The position numbers and the translations under genes were made by a program. From Candidatus Gastranaerophilales bacterium (GTDB lineage Bacteria; Cyanobacteriota; Vampirovibrionia; Gastranaerophilales; Gastranaerophilaceae): a stretch of 43,933 nt of DNA. Position 1 is the stretch's first letter, and each line of letters begins with the position of its first letter. Shown piece after piece: positions 6,089-43,462 of the stretch. Location of the stretch: positions 1-43,933 of the forward strand of contig CALUQO010000001.1 in assembly GCA_944322935.1 (NCBI GenBank). Direction: 5' to 3'. The notes beneath the pieces were generated by a model, which was not told the origin of the DNA, made no database searches, and saw only the letters and a list, made by a program, of their open reading frames with translations.

Positions 6089-7351
6089 ATGGAAAATCTG
6101 CATACGTCAATATTAACAATAAAAGCTTTAAAAATTGTTATCCCGATAGCTATTGTACTTGCAGTGTTTTTGATAAAACTATATGCATCAATATTAACAA
6201 TCTTTGTGCTAATTGTTATTCTTTTGGCAGTATGTTATGTTTGCTGTATTTTGATAAATCGTACGCTTGCAAAACAAATCGAAAAGAAGATAAACCCGCT
6301 TACAAAACAGCTCAGATCAGCCGTTTCGGACGAGGAAAAAGCGGAATTATATTTTCAGCGCAGTGATACGTATTACTCATTTAATATGTATCCGCAGGCA
6401 CTGGAGGACCTGAGCTCGGCAATCGCATTGTGTCCGCGAAATGACCGTTACTATTGTGCAAGAGCAAAAATATACTACGATTGCGGAGATGACTGGTGGT
6501 TGGACGACATTAATACAGCCATCTCTTTATCACCCGAAAGCGGAACGTACTACGGGCTGCGTGCCTATTTTTCTGCCTGCAATCCTCAAACTTTTGACAA
6601 AGCATTACAGGACTACGGTAAAGCAATCGAACTGTTTAAAAATAATCCCGAGGATTCCGGAGCAGACATGGCAGCTTCATACTACGGAAGAGCGTCCATA
6701 TATTTTTATTTAAAACTATATGACGATGCTCTGCAGGATGTAACAAAAGCCATAGAGATAAAACAAAATACCGGAAATGATACTGATACCGAGAATATAA
6801 TTTTTTATGTACTGAGAGCAAGAACCTGTTACGCTGCGGGTGATTACGGTGCTTCAATTGAGGATTACACGTTTCTTGTTAACAATGACAATACGTTCAA
6901 AGATAAATGGCTTCTGGAACGTGCCGAAGCATACACCAAATACGGCGATGAAACTAAAGCACGCAGCGATTTTAAGCAGGCTGTAAATTTGCACAACAAT
7001 GATGAAATACAAGCTCAGGTGTATTTTCAAACAGGTGAATATAAAAAAGCTTTGAAAATCTTAAATTCGGCTGAAAACACCATAAAAGAATACATAAAAA
7101 AATACAGGCAAAATGTATCAAATGACTTTGACAGTCATTTTGTCGAAATATATTTTCTCAGAGGTGAAGTGTATCAGGAACTGAAAGAGCATGATAAAGC
7201 GCTTGAAGATTACAAAAGGTCGATTGAATATTACGAAAAAATCTTTGCACGCAATAAATCTGAATTGGATATCTACGACCAAATCAGATATAACAACTGC
7301 TTAAACAGGATTACTGAAATAACGGGCAGAAAACATAAATTGAACAATTGA
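6089..7351 (+). CDS. membrane-anchored TPR protein, first paralogue
   Basis: The protein has 420 residues. The N-terminus holds two closely spaced hydrophobic helices (about residues 14-32 and 34-58), so it is a membrane protein with a large soluble domain. That domain is a run of tetratricopeptide repeats: phrases such as A-E-L-Y-F-Q-R-S, YPQALEDLSSAIALCP, YDDALQDVTKAIE and HDKALEDYKRSIEYYEKI recur at about 34-40-residue spacing. TPRs mediate protein-protein contacts; no enzymatic motif is visible. It opens a same-strand run with the next two TPR genes (16-nt gaps). Its 3' end from nucleotide 7119 onward is identical to the 3' end of the next gene, the footprint of a tandem duplication. Function unknown. 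Confidence 0.8.
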   Translation: MENLHTSILTIKALKIVIPIAIVLAVFLIKLYASILTIFVLIVILLAVCYVCCILINRTLAKQIEKKINPLTKQLRSAVSDEEKAELYFQRSDTYYSFNMYPQALEDLSSAIALCPRNDRYYCARAKIYYDCGDDWWLDDINTAISLSPESGTYYGLRAYFSACNPQTFDKALQDYGKAIELFKNNPEDSGADMAASYYGRASIYFYLKLYDDALQDVTKAIEIKQNTGNDTDTENIIFYVLRARTCYAAGDYGASIEDYTFLVNNDNTFKDKWLLERAEAYTKYGDETKARSDFKQAVNLHNNDEIQAQVYFQTGEYKKALKILNSAENTIKEYIKKYRQNVSNDFDSHFVEIYFLRGEVYQELKEHDKALEDYKRSIEYYEKIFARNKSELDIYDQIRYNNCLNRITEITGRKHKLNN

Positions 7352-8474
7352 CAGATAGGAAAAAAATATGGAAGAGATACATACATCGATATTGATCGTA
7401 AAGGTTTTGAAAATCGTTATTCCTATAGCGATTGTACTTGCAGTATTTGTGATAAAACTGGTATCAAATCGAAACCCAAAACGCATTGTCTGCTACGAGG
7501 ACGAGCAGGCATACACTGCAGCGGAAGGCGAAAATGAACCGCAAAATCAATACTGCGATGATGAAGAGGACGATTACGACCCTGAAAAAGAAAAAGCGGA
7601 ATCCAGGAAGAACATAGAAAAATTTACAAAACAGCTTGAAAGTGCGCAAACAAATGAGCGAAAGGCGGAATTATACTGTTGCCGCAGTCAGGCGTATTCT
7701 TCGCTTGATATGTATTCTCAGGCAGTTGATGATATAAATGCCGCAATTGCCTTATGTCCGCAAAATGACCATTACTATTACAAAAGGGCAGATTTACTAT
7801 TAGTACACGACGACAACAAAGCATTGCAGGATATTACAACGGCTATATCACTGGCGCCTAAAAACGCAGCCTATTACGATTTGCGGGCTGTGATTTATTT
7901 ATTGACTCCGCAAAATTTTGACAAAGCCCTGGAGGATTTTACAACCGTTATCGATTTTTGGAAAAGTGATTCCAATATCTCCGCTTCAGATACTGCAGAT
8001 GCATATTTTGGAAGAGGCAGAATATATTTTTATTTAAAACAATATGACAATGTTCTGCAGGATGTAACAAAATCAATAGAGTTGATATACGGGCAGGAAG
8101 ATATACTTAGCAAATTCGCAAGATACAGATATTATTTGCTAAGGGCAAGAACATACTGCGCTGAGGGTAATTTTGACGCCGCAATCAAGGATTACGATTT
8201 TCTTGTCGAAAATGACGAATATGGACAGGAACAGTGGATTTTAGAACGTGCACAAACTTACCTTAAAAAAGGAGATAAAGCAAAAGCGAAGAAAGAATTT
8301 TCAAAACTTACGAACTCCGATTCACCAACCTGTGCCTTGCCGCGTGCCGAAGCATTTCAGACACTCGGAAAACCTGAAAAAGCTCTGGAAGTTTTAAATA
8401 CGGAGGAAGATAACACAAAAAACATCATAGAAGAATACAAGGAATGTGCGACAAATGACTTTGACAGTCATTTT
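7119..8474 (+). repeat. direct tandem repeat, copy 1 (1,333-bp period)
   Basis: This is the first copy of a 1,356-bp segment that recurs with a 1,333-bp offset at 8452-9807. The two copies overlap by a shared 23-bp stretch at 8452-8474. The encoded proteins are identical residue for residue across it, and the nucleotides agree wherever I compared them. It covers the end of the first TPR gene and most of the second. Confidence 0.9.
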
Positions 8475-8684
8475 GTCGAAATATATTTTCTCAGAGGTGA
8501 AGTGTATCAGGAACTGAAAGAGCATGATAAAGCGCTTGAAGATTACAAAAGGTCGATTGAATATTACGAAAAAATCTTTGCACGCAATAAATCTGAATTG
8601 GATATCTACGACCAAATCAGATATAACAACTGCTTAAACAGGATTACTGAAATAACGGGCAGAAAACATAAATTGAACAATTGA
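7368..8684 (+). CDS. membrane-anchored TPR protein, chimeric second paralogue
   Basis: The protein has 438 residues, with one N-terminal hydrophobic helix (VLKIVIPIAIVLAVFVIKL), an acidic linker (CDDEEDDYDPEKEKAE, about 60-78) and about seven TPR-like units. Residues 1 to about 368 are identical to the third TPR protein, while the last 70 or so are identical to the first. The gene is therefore a hybrid: 5' part of the third gene joined to the 3' part of the first. It sits 16 nt after the preceding gene, with GATAGGAAAAAAAT before the ATG as ribosome-binding site. Presumably co-transcribed. TPR fold is clear; partner and role are unknown. An assembly collapse or expansion at the repeat should be kept in mind. 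Confidence 0.8.
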   Translation: MEEIHTSILIVKVLKIVIPIAIVLAVFVIKLVSNRNPKRIVCYEDEQAYTAAEGENEPQNQYCDDEEDDYDPEKEKAESRKNIEKFTKQLESAQTNERKAELYCCRSQAYSSLDMYSQAVDDINAAIALCPQNDHYYYKRADLLLVHDDNKALQDITTAISLAPKNAAYYDLRAVIYLLTPQNFDKALEDFTTVIDFWKSDSNISASDTADAYFGRGRIYFYLKQYDNVLQDVTKSIELIYGQEDILSKFARYRYYLLRARTYCAEGNFDAAIKDYDFLVENDEYGQEQWILERAQTYLKKGDKAKAKKEFSKLTNSDSPTCALPRAEAFQTLGKPEKALEVLNTEEDNTKNIIEEYKECATNDFDSHFVEIYFLRGEVYQELKEHDKALEDYKRSIEYYEKIFARNKSELDIYDQIRYNNCLNRITEITGRKHKLNN

Positions 8685-9807
8685 CAGATAGGAAAAAAAT
8701 ATGGAAGAGATACATACATCGATATTGATCGTAAAGGTTTTGAAAATCGTTATTCCTATAGCGATTGTACTTGCAGTATTTGTGATAAAACTGGTATCAA
8801 ATCGAAACCCAAAACGCATTGTCTGCTACGAGGACGAGCAGGCATACACTGCAGCGGAAGGCGAAAATGAACCGCAAAATCAATACTGCGATGATGAAGA
8901 GGACGATTACGACCCTGAAAAAGAAAAAGCGGAATCCAGGAAGAACATAGAAAAATTTACAAAACAGCTTGAAAGTGCGCAAACAAATGAGCGAAAGGCG
9001 GAATTATACTGTTGCCGCAGTCAGGCGTATTCTTCGCTTGATATGTATTCTCAGGCAGTTGATGATATAAATGCCGCAATTGCCTTATGTCCGCAAAATG
9101 ACCATTACTATTACAAAAGGGCAGATTTACTATTAGTACACGACGACAACAAAGCATTGCAGGATATTACAACGGCTATATCACTGGCGCCTAAAAACGC
9201 AGCCTATTACGATTTGCGGGCTGTGATTTATTTATTGACTCCGCAAAATTTTGACAAAGCCCTGGAGGATTTTACAACCGTTATCGATTTTTGGAAAAGT
9301 GATTCCAATATCTCCGCTTCAGATACTGCAGATGCATATTTTGGAAGAGGCAGAATATATTTTTATTTAAAACAATATGACAATGTTCTGCAGGATGTAA
9401 CAAAATCAATAGAGTTGATATACGGGCAGGAAGATATACTTAGCAAATTCGCAAGATACAGATATTATTTGCTAAGGGCAAGAACATACTGCGCTGAGGG
9501 TAATTTTGACGCCGCAATCAAGGATTACGATTTTCTTGTCGAAAATGACGAATATGGACAGGAACAGTGGATTTTAGAACGTGCACAAACTTACCTTAAA
9601 AAAGGAGATAAAGCAAAAGCGAAGAAAGAATTTTCAAAACTTACGAACTCCGATTCACCAACCTGTGCCTTGCCGCGTGCCGAAGCATTTCAGACACTCG
9701 GAAAACCTGAAAAAGCTCTGGAAGTTTTAAATACGGAGGAAGATAACACAAAAAACATCATAGAAGAATACAAGGAATGTGCGACAAATGACTTTGACAG
9801 TCATTTT
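8452..9807 (+). repeat. direct tandem repeat, copy 2 (1,333-bp period)
   Basis: Second copy of the segment at 7119-8474. It spans the 3' end of the chimeric gene and almost all of the third TPR gene. Identity stops at 9807; just after it (ATCAAAATG versus GTCGAAATA) the third gene returns to its own, diverged 3' end. Confidence 0.9.
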
Positions 9808-10008
9808 ATCAAAATGTATTTTCTCAGAGGCGACGTGTACGAAAAAATGCAAAAGCCCGACAAGGCGCTTGAGGACTACAAAAGGTCGATTGAATATTAC
9901 GAAAAAATCTTTGCACGCAATAAATCGGAACTGGATATCTACGACCACATCAGATATAACGACTGCTTAAACAGAATTTCGGAAATAACCGGTAACAGAA
10001 TAAATTAA
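8701..10008 (+). CDS. membrane-anchored TPR protein, third paralogue
   Basis: The protein has 435 residues with the same layout as the second paralogue: N-terminal membrane helix, acidic linker, TPR array. The first 370 or so residues are identical to that protein. The C-terminal unit differs (FIKMYFLRGDVYEKMQKPDKALEDYKRS and ending TGNRIN) and represents the original end of this gene. It is the likely parental form, with the first gene as the other parent. It is followed after 30 nt by the lipoprotein gene at 10039 and is probably in the same transcript. Function is unknown beyond a TPR scaffold at the membrane. Confidence 0.8.
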   Translation: MEEIHTSILIVKVLKIVIPIAIVLAVFVIKLVSNRNPKRIVCYEDEQAYTAAEGENEPQNQYCDDEEDDYDPEKEKAESRKNIEKFTKQLESAQTNERKAELYCCRSQAYSSLDMYSQAVDDINAAIALCPQNDHYYYKRADLLLVHDDNKALQDITTAISLAPKNAAYYDLRAVIYLLTPQNFDKALEDFTTVIDFWKSDSNISASDTADAYFGRGRIYFYLKQYDNVLQDVTKSIELIYGQEDILSKFARYRYYLLRARTYCAEGNFDAAIKDYDFLVENDEYGQEQWILERAQTYLKKGDKAKAKKEFSKLTNSDSPTCALPRAEAFQTLGKPEKALEVLNTEEDNTKNIIEEYKECATNDFDSHFIKMYFLRGDVYEKMQKPDKALEDYKRSIEYYEKIFARNKSELDIYDHIRYNDCLNRISEITGNRIN

Positions 10009-10698: not shown

Positions 10699-11805
10699 AT
10701 GAAAAAATTTAAATCATTTCTGCTTTTATTGGGTATGCTTTTGGCGTTTGCAGCCTTTGCCTGCAACAGATGTGAGGCGGCAAGAATACGTGCGGGTTTT
10801 GACCCTTCAAGATTGCCGCATAAATATCTGGGCTCCAGTCTTACCGCATACAGACTCGGCGGCTTGTGGGGGATTTACGATTCCTCGAGCAAAGCGATTT
10901 ATTCATTACCTCTGTACACGGATTTAAAAGAGCTGGAGTCTAATTATATTTTATACAATCAAAACGGACGCTGGGGTATTTTGAAATATTCTACGGGTGA
11001 CATTGAGGCAATAACGCCTCCTATATATGATTCCGTAGAAGTTCTGACTCTATATCACTTTAAGGTATCCCGTGACGGTAAATATGGCTGGATTAAGAAA
11101 ACATTCGGCGATGTTATTCAAGAGCCTGTCTATGCGGAAATTCACGCTATGAAGGATTATAACTTAGTGTGCGTGTGCGACAACAACAACTGCGGAATTG
11201 CCAGAACGAATGACGGCAAGGTTGTAAAACCGATTAAATACCCCGGCGTGTTTAATACCTCAAACGCTTCCGGATATTTTACGTATTACAGCGGCGGCGC
11301 ATACGGCGTTGTTGATCTTGAGGACAAAATTGTTTCCATGCCTAAATACAGAGGGATTAAACAAGTTACGTATGACGCAATTTATATTACCGACGGAGAA
11401 AAAAAACTCGGTCTGCTTCGCATGCGTGACGGAAAACAAATTGCGCAGCCAATCTATGACAAAATAAGCAAGCTTGCAGAACCGGGCTTTTATAAGGTTA
11501 AAAAAGACGGAAAATGGGGTGCAATAGATTACGACGGAAACCTTATTTATGAATGTAAATACGGTCCTTTGGAAATGAATAAAATGGTGCGAAACTACCC
11601 TGATAACCAAAAATTTAAAGATGTCATAGATTACAACTACTATTATGACCTCTATCTTGAAGCGTACTATTATCTTGATTTTTTGGATGCCAACGGACGT
11701 TATGCGGAAAATATTCTTAAAAAGATATTAAGTGACGAAAATAAATCTCAGGACATAAAAGATAAAGCAACTAAATTGATGAACAAATACAAAAACCAAC
11801 GGTAA
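10699..11805 (+). CDS. WG-repeat protein, exported, first of tandem pair
   Basis: The protein has 368 residues with a signal peptide (MKKFKSFLLLLGMLLAFAAFAC). A-F-A-C may be a lipobox (Cys 22), otherwise cleavage falls near CEAA. The body consists of WG/beta repeats: GLWGIYD, GRWGIL, GKYGWI, AYGVVD, KLGLLRM and GKWGAIDYDG, spaced about 40-50 residues, as in the WG_beta_rep family. The C-terminal 80 residues are tyrosine-rich and helical (YNYYYDLYLEAYYYLDFL). The gene is paralogous to the next one along its full length. WG repeats are thought to form beta-propeller-like binding surfaces; the ligand is unknown. It follows a terminator, so it has its own promoter or relies on read-through. Confidence 0.82.
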   Translation: MKKFKSFLLLLGMLLAFAAFACNRCEAARIRAGFDPSRLPHKYLGSSLTAYRLGGLWGIYDSSSKAIYSLPLYTDLKELESNYILYNQNGRWGILKYSTGDIEAITPPIYDSVEVLTLYHFKVSRDGKYGWIKKTFGDVIQEPVYAEIHAMKDYNLVCVCDNNNCGIARTNDGKVVKPIKYPGVFNTSNASGYFTYYSGGAYGVVDLEDKIVSMPKYRGIKQVTYDAIYITDGEKKLGLLRMRDGKQIAQPIYDKISKLAEPGFYKVKKDGKWGAIDYDGNLIYECKYGPLEMNKMVRNYPDNQKFKDVIDYNYYYDLYLEAYYYLDFLDANGRYAENILKKILSDENKSQDIKDKATKLMNKYKNQR

Positions 11806-11830
11806 TTTTTTAACGGAGGATTAAAACAAA

Positions 11831-12943
11831 ATGAAATTACAACTTAAAATAATTAAAAAATATATTTTACTCGTAACGCTTTTTATTGCCTGCTGCCTGG
11901 CGGGCTGCAATTACGCATATTGCTACGTTGCCAAAACAAAATTCAACCCGGAAGACGGATACACAAAAGCAATCATAGGCTCTTATATGGCGTATCAGAG
12001 ATCCGGCAGGTGGGGAATATATAACAGTACAACAAAAACCATTATCACTCCGCCAGTATATACATCGGTAAAAAGCGTCGGGCAGGATCTTTTTGGTGTG
12101 CAGTACGGTGGCAAATGGGGCATAGTGGATGAAGTCGGAACACAGATTACGCCTACAGAGTGGGATAATGTACTTAAATTGACAAACCGCTATATTATGC
12201 TTGAGCAAAACGGTGTGTACGGCTGGGTCTCCGACACCGGAAAACTTATTCAAACACCGATTTATAAATCTCTTAGCACTATTGACACCTTTATTTTTAA
12301 CGCTTGTGTAACAAACGGGTGCGGAATTGTCAGAGCGAGTGACGGCAGGGTTCTAAAGCCGCTTAAATATCCGGGAGTATTTAAAAACTCCGGCTTGTAC
12401 GGATATTTGTTGTACTACAGCGGCGGCGGTTACGGTGTTATTGATGTTGAGGATGCAGTTATTGCCCCGCCTAAATACAGAGCGATAAAAGAAGTTACAA
12501 AGGACGCCATATACATTACCGACGGCGGGGAAAAACTCGGTCTGCTTCGCATGCGCGACGGTAAACAAATTGCAGCACCTGTGTATGACAAAATAGAAGA
12601 TATGTCACAGCCCGGATTTTATAAGGTTAAAAAAGACAACAAATGGGGCGCTGTTGACTATGACGGAAATATGGTATTTAACTGCGAATACGGGCCGTTG
12701 GAAATTAACAAAAAGGTAAAAAACTATCCTAACAATCAGAAATATAAAGAGAGCGTGACTTACAACAACTATTATGCAGACTACCTTAATGCATACTATT
12801 CTCTTGAGTATCTTGGCTACGACAATTCAAGCGTAAGAAAATTGTTAAAAAATGTGTTAAGTACCGGAAACACTTATCAAAACTTGAAAAACAAAGCGAA
12901 TGAATTGATTAACAAATACGGCATTGATAGAAGCAAACTGTAA
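11831..12943 (+). CDS. WG-repeat protein, exported, second of tandem pair
   Basis: The protein has 370 residues and is a full-length paralogue of the preceding protein (for example both contain LGLLRMRDGKQIA and PGFYKVKKD). The signal sequence ends in CCLAGC, a good lipobox with Cys near residue 26, so it is likely a lipoprotein. WG units include GRWGIYN, GKWGIVD, GVYGWV, GYGVID and NKWGAVDYDG. The C-terminus carries the same tyrosine-rich helical tail. A good ribosome-binding site (AACGGAGGATTAAAACAAA) precedes the ATG, 25 nt after the first copy, so the pair forms an operon. The divergence between the copies indicates an older duplication than that of the TPR genes. Confidence 0.82.
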   Translation: MKLQLKIIKKYILLVTLFIACCLAGCNYAYCYVAKTKFNPEDGYTKAIIGSYMAYQRSGRWGIYNSTTKTIITPPVYTSVKSVGQDLFGVQYGGKWGIVDEVGTQITPTEWDNVLKLTNRYIMLEQNGVYGWVSDTGKLIQTPIYKSLSTIDTFIFNACVTNGCGIVRASDGRVLKPLKYPGVFKNSGLYGYLLYYSGGGYGVIDVEDAVIAPPKYRAIKEVTKDAIYITDGGEKLGLLRMRDGKQIAAPVYDKIEDMSQPGFYKVKKDNKWGAVDYDGNMVFNCEYGPLEINKKVKNYPNNQKYKESVTYNNYYADYLNAYYSLEYLGYDNSSVRKLLKNVLSTGNTYQNLKNKANELINKYGIDRSKL

Positions 12944-38468: not shown

Positions 38469-39002
38469 TTGTTAGAACATGGCTATATTCAAATTTATAC
38501 AGGGGACGGAAAAGGTAAAACTACCGCGTCGTTAGGTTTGGCTTTGCGTGCATTGGGTCATGGGTGGAAGGTACTTGTTATCCAGTTTACAAAGGGTGAC
38601 TCCGGTACAACATATGGTGAAATAGCTTCAGCAGGTCAATTTTTGCCTAATTTAGAGGTTCATCAGTTCGGTATGGACAGAGTTGTTTATAAGCACAATG
38701 TTTGCATTGAAGATTACAAAGAAGCTAAAAAGGGCTGGGAATTGGCAAAACAGGCTATTCAAAGCGGAGAGTACCAGCTTATTATTCTTGATGAAATTAA
38801 CATCTGCGTAGCAATGAATATGATTAAGGTTGCTGAAGTAAAAGAAGTTTTAATGAATAAACCGGAAAGTCTTGAAATTGTGTTAACCGGCAGATATGCT
38901 CACCCCGAGCTTGTTGCAATGGCTCATCTGGTTACTGAAATGAAGCCTATTAAACACTACTTTGATATGGGTGTTATGGCAAGACAAGGTATCGAATATT
39001 AA
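38469..39002 (+). CDS. cobO: corrinoid (cob(I)yrinic acid a,c-diamide) adenosyltransferase
   Basis: The enzyme adenosylates cobalt of corrinoids, giving adenosylcobalamin precursors. The 177-residue protein is of the CobA/CobO/BtuR type: P-loop GDGKGKTTASLGLALRALGHG (about 12-32), VLVIQFTKGDSGTTYGE, and LIILDEINICVAMNMI (Walker-B-like, about 100). It ends in VTEMKPIKHYFDMGVMARQGIEY, the family's C-terminal signature. The start codon is TTG, with the strong Shine-Dalgarno CGGAGGA 8 nt upstream deciding it. Monocistronic, with its own terminator; the two corrinoid-protein genes follow at once. Confidence 0.93.
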   Translation: MLEHGYIQIYTGDGKGKTTASLGLALRALGHGWKVLVIQFTKGDSGTTYGEIASAGQFLPNLEVHQFGMDRVVYKHNVCIEDYKEAKKGWELAKQAIQSGEYQLIILDEINICVAMNMIKVAEVKEVLMNKPESLEIVLTGRYAHPELVAMAHLVTEMKPIKHYFDMGVMARQGIEY

Positions 39003-39047
39003 CGCACTAAACATTAGGCGTAAATATACGGAGAAATGGGGAAATAC

Positions 39048-39080
39048 GGGAGGTTTGTTTAACGACAACTCCCTTTTTTT
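39048..39080 (+). terminator. terminator of cobO
   Basis: GGGAG...CTCCC (39048-39052, 39069-39073) with inner TTGT/ACAA pairing, then eight T. Confidence 0.8.
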
Positions 39081-39085
39081 TACGA

Positions 39086-39114
39086 TTGACAATAGTACAT
39101 TTACTTTTTAATAT
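39086..39114 (+). promoter_or_regulatory. near-consensus promoter abutting the acsD start codon
   Basis: Perfect -35 TTGACA (39086-39091), 17-nt spacer, -10 TAATAT (39109-39114). The ATG follows 7 nt later, so the transcript would begin at or next to the start codon (leaderless). No Shine-Dalgarno is visible. Confidence 0.65.
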
Positions 39115-39121
39115 AAAATCT

Positions 39122-40030
39122 ATGAACAAATCAGACCTGTCTTTTAGGATTAAAGAAAAAATACGGAAAACACAACTAGGGGATTTAATAATTGGCGGAA
39201 ACAGCTCCCGCTCTTTTATGGAAGAAAACTGCAACAACGCGAAGCCTCTTATTGCAATAGAAATCCCTTATATTTTTGATAACACATATCCCGAAGTTTT
39301 AAAAGAACAGTGGAACTGCTCAACAACGGAACAAATGCTGCAAAAAGCAGATAACTCTGAAGCGGATATAATTTCTATAAAATTTAATCTTGCGGAAGAT
39401 AATACAGATTCCCATCTTGAAAAAATAAAAGATTTTTTAAAAAACACTTTATCCAAAATACAAAAGCCTCTTATACTGCGAGGGGCCAACAACGATCCTG
39501 TGGATTTAAAGCTGCTGCCCCTGCTTGCGGAATTTGCACCAAAGGAGTGTATTATCTCTTTTGCACAGGAAAGTACTTACGAACAGATTGTTCCGATAGT
39601 CGCAAAGTACAATCATATTCTTGTGTTGCGCAGCCCGATTGATATAAATCTGGCAAAAGAATTAAATATTTTGTCTATAGACAAAGGAATGCATCCTGAC
39701 AGAATTCTTATTGACCCTGACATGGGCGGGCTTGGCTACGGACTGGATTACGGCTACAGTATTATTGAGAAAATCCGGCAGGCTGCTTTTGACGGTGACA
39801 CTATGCTTAACATGCCGGTTATTGCCTTCATCGGAGAAGAATCTTACAGAGCTAAAGAAGCTAAATCAGATACCTTTAGCGCACAATGGGGCGATTATAA
39901 AGAAAGAGCAGCTATGTGGGAAATAGCCGGAGCTTCAGCCATGATAAGCGCGGGTGCCGACATAGTTGTTTTGTGGAATCCCAAAAGTGTTGAAGCAATC
40001 ACATCATTACTCAGGGGGGATAAAGACTGA
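39122..40030 (+). CDS. acsD: corrinoid iron-sulfur protein small (delta) subunit, AcsD/CdhD type
   Basis: The protein has 302 residues, the usual size of the CFeSP small subunit, which forms a TIM barrel and, with AcsC, carries the methyl group in the Wood-Ljungdahl pathway. Visible family blocks are PLIAIEIPYIFDNTYP, ADIISIKFNLAE, PLILRGANNDPVDLKLLPLLAEF and the characteristic DPDMGGLGYGLDYGYSIIEKIR (about 198-220). MLNMPVIAFIGEESYRAKEAK then follows, near 230-250. The ATG at 39122 fits a leaderless start. It overlaps the next gene by one nucleotide (TGATG), so the two subunits are coupled. acsA, acsB and acsE are not in the window. Confidence 0.92.
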   Translation: MNKSDLSFRIKEKIRKTQLGDLIIGGNSSRSFMEENCNNAKPLIAIEIPYIFDNTYPEVLKEQWNCSTTEQMLQKADNSEADIISIKFNLAEDNTDSHLEKIKDFLKNTLSKIQKPLILRGANNDPVDLKLLPLLAEFAPKECIISFAQESTYEQIVPIVAKYNHILVLRSPIDINLAKELNILSIDKGMHPDRILIDPDMGGLGYGLDYGYSIIEKIRQAAFDGDTMLNMPVIAFIGEESYRAKEAKSDTFSAQWGDYKERAAMWEIAGASAMISAGADIVVLWNPKSVEAITSLLRGDKD

Positions 40031-41241
40031 TGAACCTGACAGGCATGCAAATTTTTAAATATCTTCCCGGAGCAAAAAAAGCGGAAGGCACAAATTGCAA
40101 ACAATGCGGCTGTCCTACCTGCATGGCTTACGCCTTGAAACTTGCCAAAAAAGAGGCTGATATAGAAAACTGTCCGCATGTCCCGCAGGAGCTTAAGGAA
40201 AAATTTGCGGAATCTTCAAAAATTCAACAGCACGAAATAAAATTATCAGACTCTCTTATAACTGGCGGGGAAACCGTTATGTACCGCCACGACAAAACCT
40301 TTGTTAACCGTACGGTAATTGCGCTTGCTCTTGATTCCGACGACAAAGACTTTGACAAAAAGCTTGAGCAAATTGCAAACTATGAAATTGAAAGAATAGG
40401 CGAAAAGTTCAAAGTTGATGCAATTTATCTGACCGGCAGCAACCTTGAAAAAGCCACAAAAAAAATTGAAGCTGCCGGAATTACGGTGATTTCCGCAATG
40501 TCTACGTACAAAATCGTGAGTGCCGCTGACATTGAATCTCTGGAAAAAGCTTCGATTAAAGTCCTTGAACAGGGTGCAAAAGATATTGTACTTGAGCTTG
40601 GGTACAAAAAAAGCTTAAAAGATATTGTACAGGAGCTTACATTTATCAGACGTGCAGCAATAATAAAACGCTATGAACCGTTTACATACCCTGTTATGGT
40701 AAAACTGCCATTCGATACGGATATTTTTCAGCTAACCGCAGCGGCATCCGTTCTGCTTTGCAGATATGCAAATATCATTGTGCTGCCGGTGTTTGACGCT
40801 GCGCTTTTATCAACAATTTTTACATTACGGCAAAATATTTACACAAACCCTCAAAAACCGCTGCAGGTTGAAGCAAAGGTATATGAATTTAACGAACCGG
40901 ACAAAAATGCTCCAATACTTTTGACTACAAACTTTGCGCTGACATATTTTGCTGTCGCTGGCGAGCTCGAGTCGCTACCGTTCGGTTCATATCTTGTTGT
41001 TACGCCTTCTGACGGAATGAGCGTGTTAACAGCATGGTCGGCTGATAAGTTTACAGCCGAGCTTGTTGCGCGTTCTGTTAAAAATTTCGGACTTTTAGAA
41101 AAAGTCAACACAAGAAAAATTATTATCCCCGGACTGCTTGCACATATGAGAGATGAGCTGCAAGAAGCAATGCCCGAGTGGGAAATTGTTACTGGCACGA
41201 TAGAAGCCTGCCAGATTCCGGAATTTTTGAGACAGGGGTAG
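40030..41241 (+). CDS. acsC: corrinoid iron-sulfur protein large (gamma) subunit, AcsC/CdhE type
   Basis: The protein has 403 residues, somewhat shorter than the usual 440-450. The N-terminal four-iron domain reads NCKQCGCPTCMAYALKL and, further on, IENCP, with Cys 23, 26, 31 and 48 as cluster ligands (Cys 28 is extra). A TIM-barrel part follows (VDAIYLTGSNLEKATKKIEAAGI, YPVMVKLPFDTDIFQLTAAAS). The C-terminal corrinoid-binding domain reads ILLTTNFALTYFAVAGELE, VVTPSDGMSVLTAWSADKF and KIIIPGLLAHM with WEIVTGTIEACQIPEFL. This domain holds a B12-type corrinoid that accepts a methyl group; the iron-sulfur cluster reactivates it. Coupled to acsD and 3 kb from the adenosyltransferase. Confidence 0.93.
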   Translation: MNLTGMQIFKYLPGAKKAEGTNCKQCGCPTCMAYALKLAKKEADIENCPHVPQELKEKFAESSKIQQHEIKLSDSLITGGETVMYRHDKTFVNRTVIALALDSDDKDFDKKLEQIANYEIERIGEKFKVDAIYLTGSNLEKATKKIEAAGITVISAMSTYKIVSAADIESLEKASIKVLEQGAKDIVLELGYKKSLKDIVQELTFIRRAAIIKRYEPFTYPVMVKLPFDTDIFQLTAAASVLLCRYANIIVLPVFDAALLSTIFTLRQNIYTNPQKPLQVEAKVYEFNEPDKNAPILLTTNFALTYFAVAGELESLPFGSYLVVTPSDGMSVLTAWSADKFTAELVARSVKNFGLLEKVNTRKIIIPGLLAHMRDELQEAMPEWEIVTGTIEACQIPEFLRQG

Positions 41242-41350: not shown

Positions 41351-43462
41351 ATGAGCTTAAAGGTTGAGGGTTTGAATAAATTAAAGGTCTTTTTGACCGC
41401 TGTGGTAATTATATTACTTTTTGTGTTTGCGCAGTTTTTCAAAAGTGTATTTGATATTATTGAAAATGAATTTATTGATTTAAGAAGCAAACTCGTGCTT
41501 GACGGTGGGCTTTATTCACAAAGATATAAACCTGCTGATGGTAATATAGTTATAGTTTCAATAAATGACCTTACTCAGTACGAGGCAGCCAATTCTCCGG
41601 AATTAAACTTGAGAAGATGGCCCTGGTCGCGGGAAGTTTGGGCAAATGTTATAAAATTTTTGGAAAAACAAAACCCGCGGGTACTTGTTGTTGATTTAAA
41701 CTTTTCAAATTACGAAGATTTGTCGCGTAATTATGCTTCTGCTGATATGAGGCTGGCGGACACGCTGGGTGCATACAAAAACATAATATTGGCCACTGCA
41801 TTAAAAACACAGGTGGCGCAGGGCGAACGTTATGATGCATCAAAAATTCTTGATAATTTTGAAAATCCGTATTCTCCGTCGAGTGATGCTTTGAGTATGC
41901 GTATATATGACAGCGCTCTTGATTCTTATATTACATATTTTGCGCATACACCGATACCGGATATTTTTACAAACAGCACAACAATGGCCGTAACAAATCT
42001 TGTTACTGACAAATCCAATAACGATGCTAATATAAGGTATTCTCAACCCGTATATCGTTTGATAAAAGGAAATAAAGAGTATTATTTGCCTTCGCTTGCG
42101 CTTGCTGCAATGATGAAATACAACGGCATTGATCCTTTGACTGAGGAAATAACAATAAAAAATAATGTTTTACAAATGCCGGGGCATTCTATACGCCTTA
42201 ATTCAAAGGGCAAAGTGTTGATTAATTGGCACAAGGATGTGAATACATATGCGGATATTCCGATAAATGCGCTGCTGCTCAGTATGGTCAGGGGAACAGA
42301 CTATTTTGAATATAGCAACAAGAAAATTCCGCTTGATTTTTTTAAAGACAAAATCGTTATAATCGCACAAACCCAGACTGCTACGGAAACACATAATACA
42401 CCTGTGGCAAAGGACATGCCTGATGCGCAGATAAAAGCAGCGATTATTGACAATTATATTAATGACTCTGATATCCAAAACAAATTTAGAAAGAATTTTG
42501 CAAAACAGATAGCGCCGTTTAAAGGCAATATAATAACAGCGTCTTTTTGTATGGCAATTGTTATTGTAATGCTTATAGCCACAAATCTGCCGCTTGCGGT
42601 TGTTAACGGCATTTTGATAATTTGTACATATGTTTTGTTTGCGATATTTGTTTTTGCTCACCCCCGCTTCAGGCTGATTGTGGATATGGCGGAGCCTTTA
42701 TACTGGATTTGTTCGATATTTATTCTTGCGTTTGCGCTAAAAGCCCATTATGAAATTAAAAGAAAAAGGAAAATAGAGCGTATTTTCGGTAATCTTGTAT
42801 CGGCAAAGGTATTAAAGCAGCTTGTCAACAAACCGCACCGGCTTAATCTTAAATCTACGGTGCAAAAAGTTACGGTAATGTCTTGCAACATATACAATGA
42901 TATTCAAATAACAAAAGAGCTTCCGCCGGAAAAATACGTTGAACTTATAAACAAGATTTTTAATTCTATTGAAAAGATTATATTTAAGTACAACGGCACA
43001 ATTAATCGTTTTGTGGGTAACTCTGTTCTTGTTTACTGGGGATATCCAATACATTCGAGAAAAGACAGTGAAAATGCCCTGCGGGCAGCAATAGAAATTC
43101 AGGAAAAAATTGATGAAATTAACTCAAGTGTCAGCAATATAAACTTTGAAGAATATGATGAACAAACCTTTAAAGAAACCTCACCAAATAACTATTCAGT
43201 AGATGTAAAAATAGCTATTAATACGGGAGATGCCCTCGTCGGGCAAATAGGTTCATCAAATTTGTCAGATTTTACCGTTATGGGTGAGACAGTTGATGTA
43301 GTTGAAAGAATAAAAGATGTGTGTCTGGAATTTAACAAAGATATTATAGTGACAGAAAGCACTCTTAACAGCATAGACGAAAAAATTCCCGCTCATTATA
43401 TAGGTGCGGTACGGATAAAAAATTCGCCGGAAAAAACAAAAATCTTTGAGATTAAACTGTAA
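41351..43462 (+). CDS. CHASE2 receptor with degenerate class III adenylate/guanylate cyclase domain
   Basis: The protein has 703 residues. Layout: an N-terminal membrane helix (about 14-32), then an extracytoplasmic CHASE2 sensor domain (about 35-385, with ISINDLTQYEAANSPELNLRRWPWSREVW and RVLVVDLNFSN). A three-helix membrane region (about 395-470, from NIITASFCMAIVIVML) leads to a cytoplasmic class III cyclase domain (about 500-700). The cyclase fold is clear: VTVMSCNIYNDIQ, NGTINRFVGNSVLVYWGYP, INTGDALVGQIGSSNLSDFTVMGETVDVVERIKDV. However, the two metal-binding aspartates are Asn513 and Asn557, and the usual transition-state Asn of V-N-x-A-x-R is Asp649 (Arg653 remains). Catalysis as a normal two-metal cyclase seems unlikely. 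Leaderless start; own terminator. Confidence 0.88.
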   Translation: MSLKVEGLNKLKVFLTAVVIILLFVFAQFFKSVFDIIENEFIDLRSKLVLDGGLYSQRYKPADGNIVIVSINDLTQYEAANSPELNLRRWPWSREVWANVIKFLEKQNPRVLVVDLNFSNYEDLSRNYASADMRLADTLGAYKNIILATALKTQVAQGERYDASKILDNFENPYSPSSDALSMRIYDSALDSYITYFAHTPIPDIFTNSTTMAVTNLVTDKSNNDANIRYSQPVYRLIKGNKEYYLPSLALAAMMKYNGIDPLTEEITIKNNVLQMPGHSIRLNSKGKVLINWHKDVNTYADIPINALLLSMVRGTDYFEYSNKKIPLDFFKDKIVIIAQTQTATETHNTPVAKDMPDAQIKAAIIDNYINDSDIQNKFRKNFAKQIAPFKGNIITASFCMAIVIVMLIATNLPLAVVNGILIICTYVLFAIFVFAHPRFRLIVDMAEPLYWICSIFILAFALKAHYEIKRKRKIERIFGNLVSAKVLKQLVNKPHRLNLKSTVQKVTVMSCNIYNDIQITKELPPEKYVELINKIFNSIEKIIFKYNGTINRFVGNSVLVYWGYPIHSRKDSENALRAAIEIQEKIDEINSSVSNINFEEYDEQTFKETSPNNYSVDVKIAINTGDALVGQIGSSNLSDFTVMGETVDVVERIKDVCLEFNKDIIVTESTLNSIDEKIPAHYIGAVRIKNSPEKTKIFEIKL

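Follow-up and report, generated by a model that had tools for sequence, protein, structure and literature searches.

The 43,933-nucleotide stretch of Candidatus Gastranaerophilales DNA analysed here (the window) encodes a CHASE2 cyclase-like receptor, hereafter called B, whose class III cyclase domain is predicted to be catalytically dead and appears to have been maintained under selection in that state. The only other class III cyclase of the genome, hereafter called A, has an intact active site and is devoid of CHASE2, which it lost in the same group of gut bacteria. On the basis of sequence comparisons, we propose that the dead receptor B provides a sensory or regulatory input to the sensor-less A through hetero-oligomers, a reading to which we assign a probability of roughly 45%.

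The window lies at the beginning of contig 1 in a genome assembly of 2.3 Mb and 76 contigs. The B gene has an ATG start codon and is not interrupted by frameshifts (Table 1). Pfam and hydropathy analyses showed the layout of CHASE2 receptors, with the CHASE2 domain (PF05226, 111 bits) located between the first and the later membrane helices. The class III nucleotide cyclase fold is indicated both by the Guanylate_cyc profile (PF00211, E = 2.2e-11, 44 bits for a cut-off of 21.9) and by structural modelling. An AlphaFold model of residues 470-703 reached a pLDDT of 71 in the best of five predictions, the other four being poor, and it matched the structures of Pseudomonas aeruginosa CyaB (3r5g; Z 22.9, rmsd 3.0 over 185 aligned residues) and Spirulina CyaC (1wc3; Z 22.3). 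A prediction of the whole protein with 10 close orthologues yielded a pLDDT of 41 and was unusable. The description of the CHASE2 domain, membrane region and cyclase fold as intact, made in an initial annotation of this DNA, is thus borne out.

In a phmmer alignment with PDB sequences, N513 and N557 of B correspond to the metal-binding Asp residues of CyaB, CyaC and the cyanobacterial Cya2, and D649 to their transition-state Asn. The catalytic positions of Rv1625c, namely Asp256, Lys296, Asp300, Asp365, Asn372 and Arg376 (PMC4174876), led to the same assignments with exact offsets, of +257 for B positions 513, 553 and 557 and +277 for positions 642, 649 and 653, as verified at the codon level. 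The three replacements named in the initial annotation were therefore correctly placed, and no other acidic residue takes the place of the metal ligands in the alignment. It had missed a further change, the replacement of the purine-binding Lys by R553. The G-F-T motif of the P-loop is lost as well, and T642, R653 and K690 are retained, with Thr, Arg or Lys, and Lys, respectively, in 29/29 orthologues. Where active cyclases harbour two metal-binding Asp, a Lys and Asp/Thr pair and a transition-state Asn and Arg pair, B has two Asn, an Arg and Thr pair and an Asp with a conserved basic residue. The transition-state Asn alone is dispensable in some known cyclases, as Rv1900c has a His at this position (PMC4886424). 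Because the same changes recur in independent genomes, they do not result from sequencing errors. Judging from these residues, B in all probability makes no cyclic nucleotide.

Table 1. Positions in the window of the B gene and of the features discussed in the text.
Feature	Position	Strand	Basis
Gene for B, a CHASE2 pseudo-cyclase receptor of 703 residues	41351..43462	+	ORF, Pfam
First membrane helix, residues 11-29	41381..41437	+	Hydropathy
CHASE2 extracytoplasmic sensor domain, residues 21-396	41411..42538	+	Pfam PF05226, E 8.9e-32
Membrane segment preceding the cyclase domain, residues 389-470	42515..42760	+	Hydropathy
Linker at the cyclase-transducing element site, residues 471-500	42761..42850	+	57% of columns invariant, 29 orthologues
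Class III cyclase domain (predicted to be catalytically dead), residues 503-697	42857..43441	+	Pfam, phmmer, model
N513, metal Asp position 1	42887..42889	+	Asn 24/29, Asp 4/29, Ser 1/29 orthologues
Beta2-beta3 hairpin YNGTINRFVGNSVLVYWGYPI, residues 547-567	42989..43051	+	20/21 columns invariant, 29 orthologues
R553, replaces purine-binding Lys	43007..43009	+	29/29 orthologues
N557, metal Asp position 2	43019..43021	+	29/29 orthologues
Insertion between alpha3 and beta4, residues 598-612	43142..43186	+	Gap in all other aligned sequences
T642, second purine-specifying position, kept	43274..43276	+	29/29 orthologues
D649, replaces transition-state Asn	43295..43297	+	Asp 28/29, Glu 1/29
R653, phosphate/transition-state Arg, kept	43307..43309	+	Arg 25/29, Lys 4/29

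B is present in 22 of the 23 genomes of the genus, the lone exception being an 85% complete genome, and two sister genera, which we code g19 and g33, yielded further orthologues. We collected 29 distinct sequences from these three genera, none of which retains both metal-binding Asp residues. Conservation of the Asn-Asn-Asp combination among relatives, suggested as a check in the initial annotation, proved complete for the second position, with D557N in all sequences, nearly complete for the third, with N649D in 28 of them, and partial for the first, with D513N in 24, the full triple being present in most orthologues and not in all; K553R is universal. All 44 A sequences and all 18 other B sequences kept both Asp residues, the Lys, the Asn and the Arg. 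The closest B relatives outside the clade, from genera g11, g15, g23 and g32 and from two other families of the order, are canonical. Among the matches listed, the family has 38 other genera, of which only 4 carry B, with canonical catalytic residues, although the genomes are mostly metagenome-assembled and gene absences can reflect incompleteness. One genome of genus g11 (G011) carries two canonical B paralogues, on contigs 131 and 137 (L032 and L093).

When the diagnostic columns were left out of the cyclase-domain alignment, phylogenetic analysis placed all dead B proteins in a single clade (100/100 support, with a long stem of 1.05 changes per site) nested within canonical B, indicating that catalysis was lost once. 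No reversion at position 557 was found in any of them. The genetic environment of B is not conserved, with no neighbour common to the genus and with AcsC and LemA genes adjacent to B only in the window genome, yet B was retained through many rearrangements.

Other features of the window were recorded. Genes for CobA, AcsD-like and AcsC-like (CdhD family) proteins immediately precede B (38469-41241), an arrangement that is not found beside B in related genomes. No acetyl-CoA synthase gene (CdhC, PF03598) was found in the window genome, and the corrinoid protein of this cluster may serve another methyl transfer. Three tandem paralogues of the TPR type are encoded at 6089-10008, the second and third of which are near-identical over most of their length, suggesting a recent duplication. 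Two other tandem paralogues, of 368 and 370 residues with repeated W-G-type motifs, are encoded at 10699-12943.

The cyclase domain of B is under purifying selection, with dN/dS ratios of about 0.03-0.06 (around 0.04) in most pairs with measurable dS, and its CHASE2 domain gave comparable values of 0.02-0.06 within the genus; these are approximate estimates, with dS close to saturation in many pairs. The beta2-beta3 hairpin, which formerly held the second metal-binding Asp, is the best conserved 21-residue stretch of the whole protein, a degree of conservation matched in 0 of 5,000 shuffles, and the transducer linker, with 16 of 23 positions invariant, ranks with it among the best conserved parts. 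The P-loop has 4 invariant positions out of 9 in B vs. 8 out of 9 in A from the same host clade, and the transition-state region 3 out of 17 vs. 15 out of 17. Over 17 host genomes, conservation is higher in B than in A for the membrane segment (0.58 vs. 0.38) and the linker (0.83 vs. 0.62), and lower for the second half of the cyclase domain (0.63 vs. 0.89). Among the aligned sequences, the 15-residue insertion is confined to the dead-B clade. The constraint on B has been altered rather than abolished, and the simplest reading is that B has been kept as a signal-transmitting dimer module whose chemistry was abandoned. These data support the proposal, already present in the initial annotation, that B is a maintained pseudo-cyclase, and they argue against a relic. 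Among the roles it had offered, the best match is a scaffold or receptor. Nucleotide sensing, although conceivable, finds no support, given the changes in the P-loop, in both metal ligands and at the purine-binding Lys.

A (L001) is a protein of 358 residues coded just upstream of recG, and the window genome has no PF00211 genes besides those of A and B. Pfam searches did not find CHASE2 in A of the window clade. In 17/17 sampled genomes of the three dead-B genera, A is between 353 and 384 residues long (354 to 387 in a wider sample of the genus) and devoid of CHASE2, with a short extracytoplasmic loop in its place. Elsewhere in the family, among the matches listed, uncut A frames have at least 631 residues, and CHASE2 is kept in nearly all genera. 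Among these matches, CHASE2-less A proteins are confined to the three genera with dead B, all of which harbour B. The short A proteins form a single clade (100/100 support), and recG directly follows A in both the short and the full forms, indicating that CHASE2 was lost in place. Both halves of the active site are complete in all 17 A sequences; A homodimers should therefore work, and the role of B would be to regulate A, not to complete its site.

That the intact cyclase has in turn lost CHASE2 is the most informative fact of this analysis, and it is new here. The loss of complementary halves, sensor and catalysis, by two paralogues in one host clade is a strong hint, although no proof, and suggests that one job was divided between A and B. 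As the reciprocal loss is a single episode (n = 1), it allows no statistical test and might be coincidental. The two genes are not adjacent. Co-evolution as judged from shared derived residues was rejected, since 3 of 16 positions were changed in both proteins, which is no more frequent than in control clades (0-6 of 4-25). The correlation of pairwise identities between A and B (0.73-0.82) is at the level expected from shared host ancestry alone.

In the mechanism that we envision, the CHASE2 domain of B would sense an extracytoplasmic signal, and its cyclase-like domain would still dimerize in the class III fold and no longer make a cyclic nucleotide. Hetero-oligomers of B with A would be held together by the membrane helices, the transducer linker and, within the cyclase domain, the beta2-beta3 hairpin, enabling the CHASE2 domain of B to tune the activity of A. 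We tentatively suggest that reciprocal degeneration of two full-length CHASE2 cyclases might have generated a two-protein receptor cyclase, in which a dead receptor would control a sensor-less enzyme in trans. With respect to a downstream receptor of cAMP, the sole protein with a cNMP-binding domain in the genome is a CRP-like regulator (L107 4160-4792, contig 5 of G000) that, from its sequence, seems to be without the cAMP-binding Arg of the phosphate-binding cassette. A third CHASE2 protein of the genome harbours a GGDEF diguanylate cyclase domain (L106 1032-2876, contig 10 of G000), and CHASE2 proteins of similar length are found in most genomes of the genus.

The foremost alternative, which we find possible but rather doubtful, is that B homodimers signal alone to a different partner, with the CHASE2 input moving the linker, the dead cyclase dimer serving as a protein-docking platform and the loss of CHASE2 in A being unrelated. 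The strong conservation of the linker and hairpin is consistent with this, the clade-specific insertion could dock such a partner, A looks self-sufficient, and B has neither genetic linkage to A nor a conserved neighbour. However, it does not account for the loss of the sensor from A in exactly these three genera, among the matches listed, or for the presence of B throughout them and in so few other genera of the family.

An A/B heterodimer resembling the mammalian C1/C2 pair, with A contributing the metal-binding Asp residues and the P-loop and B contributing R553, T642, D649 and R653 to a single working site, is unlikely. It would account for the loss of the metal side in B with conservation of T642, R/K653 and K690, the Asn might be dispensable as in Rv1900c (PMC4886424), and eukaryotes commonly have class III cyclases that are heterodimers (PMC8815786). 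Like mammalian C2, whose homodimer is inactive (PMC4174876) and which works with an intact partner, B is a class III domain without the metal side. Nevertheless, a C2-type partner lacks the metal-binding Asp residues and keeps the Lys, the Asp/Thr, the Asn and the Arg for the shared site, whereas both the Lys and the Asn are replaced in B, and the transition-state region is more relaxed in B than in A. In addition, unlike C1 and C2, A and B are coded by separate genes, and A is complete by itself; as it holds its own second half, complementation by B is not needed. Obligate complementation of this type is thus disfavoured.

It is even less probable that B remains an enzyme with altered chemistry, as the initial annotation had also considered, using for instance another nucleotide or a metal-binding mode with Asn ligands. 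The changes to R553, N557 and D/E649 are not random and have become fixed, as would be expected of a new active site, but one metal position varies between Asn, Asp and Ser, and conservation has relaxed in the P-loop and been lost from the transition-state region. Finally, the loss of B from most genera of the family, among the matches listed, might suggest that a redundant CHASE2 cyclase is decaying and that B is its relic, which is highly improbable given its intactness in 29 genomes of three genera, the low dN/dS ratio of its cyclase domain (about 0.04), its near-invariant hairpin and its retention through many rearrangements.

Among characterized systems, the CHASE2-class III cyclases CyaD1, CyaD2 and CyaK of Sinorhizobium meliloti raise cAMP levels in response to an outside signal (PMC13001267). 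B similarly combines CHASE2, membrane helices and a class III domain in one chain, but its metal-binding Asp residues, purine-binding Lys, transition-state Asn and P-loop are replaced, and no activity is expected. CyaB and CyaC, the closest solved folds, are also unlike B in being catalytically complete homodimers. The proposed pairing is reminiscent of the fungal NeoR with RGC1 or RGC2, receptor cyclases that differ in their sensor parts and depend on each other to function (PMC8815786), and more generally of the eukaryotic heterodimeric class III cyclases (PMC8815786, PMC9552081). In contrast with A and B, the NeoR/RGC system is eukaryotic, no catalytic residue is missing from RGC1 and RGC2, and both partners have retained a sensor. 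Our searches of freely accessible literature turned up no account of dead CHASE2 cyclases. In the papers covered, the term 'pseudocyclase' was not found in use, and nothing relevant was found on adenylate cyclases, cAMP or CHASE2 in Gastranaerophilales or Melainabacteria.

Class III cyclases are usually taken as active once the domain has been called, and automatic annotation would count B as an adenylate cyclase. A conserved dead bacterial cyclase whose loss is mirrored in an active paralogue would represent a natural case for the origin of split, heteromeric cyclases, such as mammalian C1/C2, from homodimers, and A and B would provide a two-gene system for testing the regulation of an intact enzyme in trans by a dead receptor.
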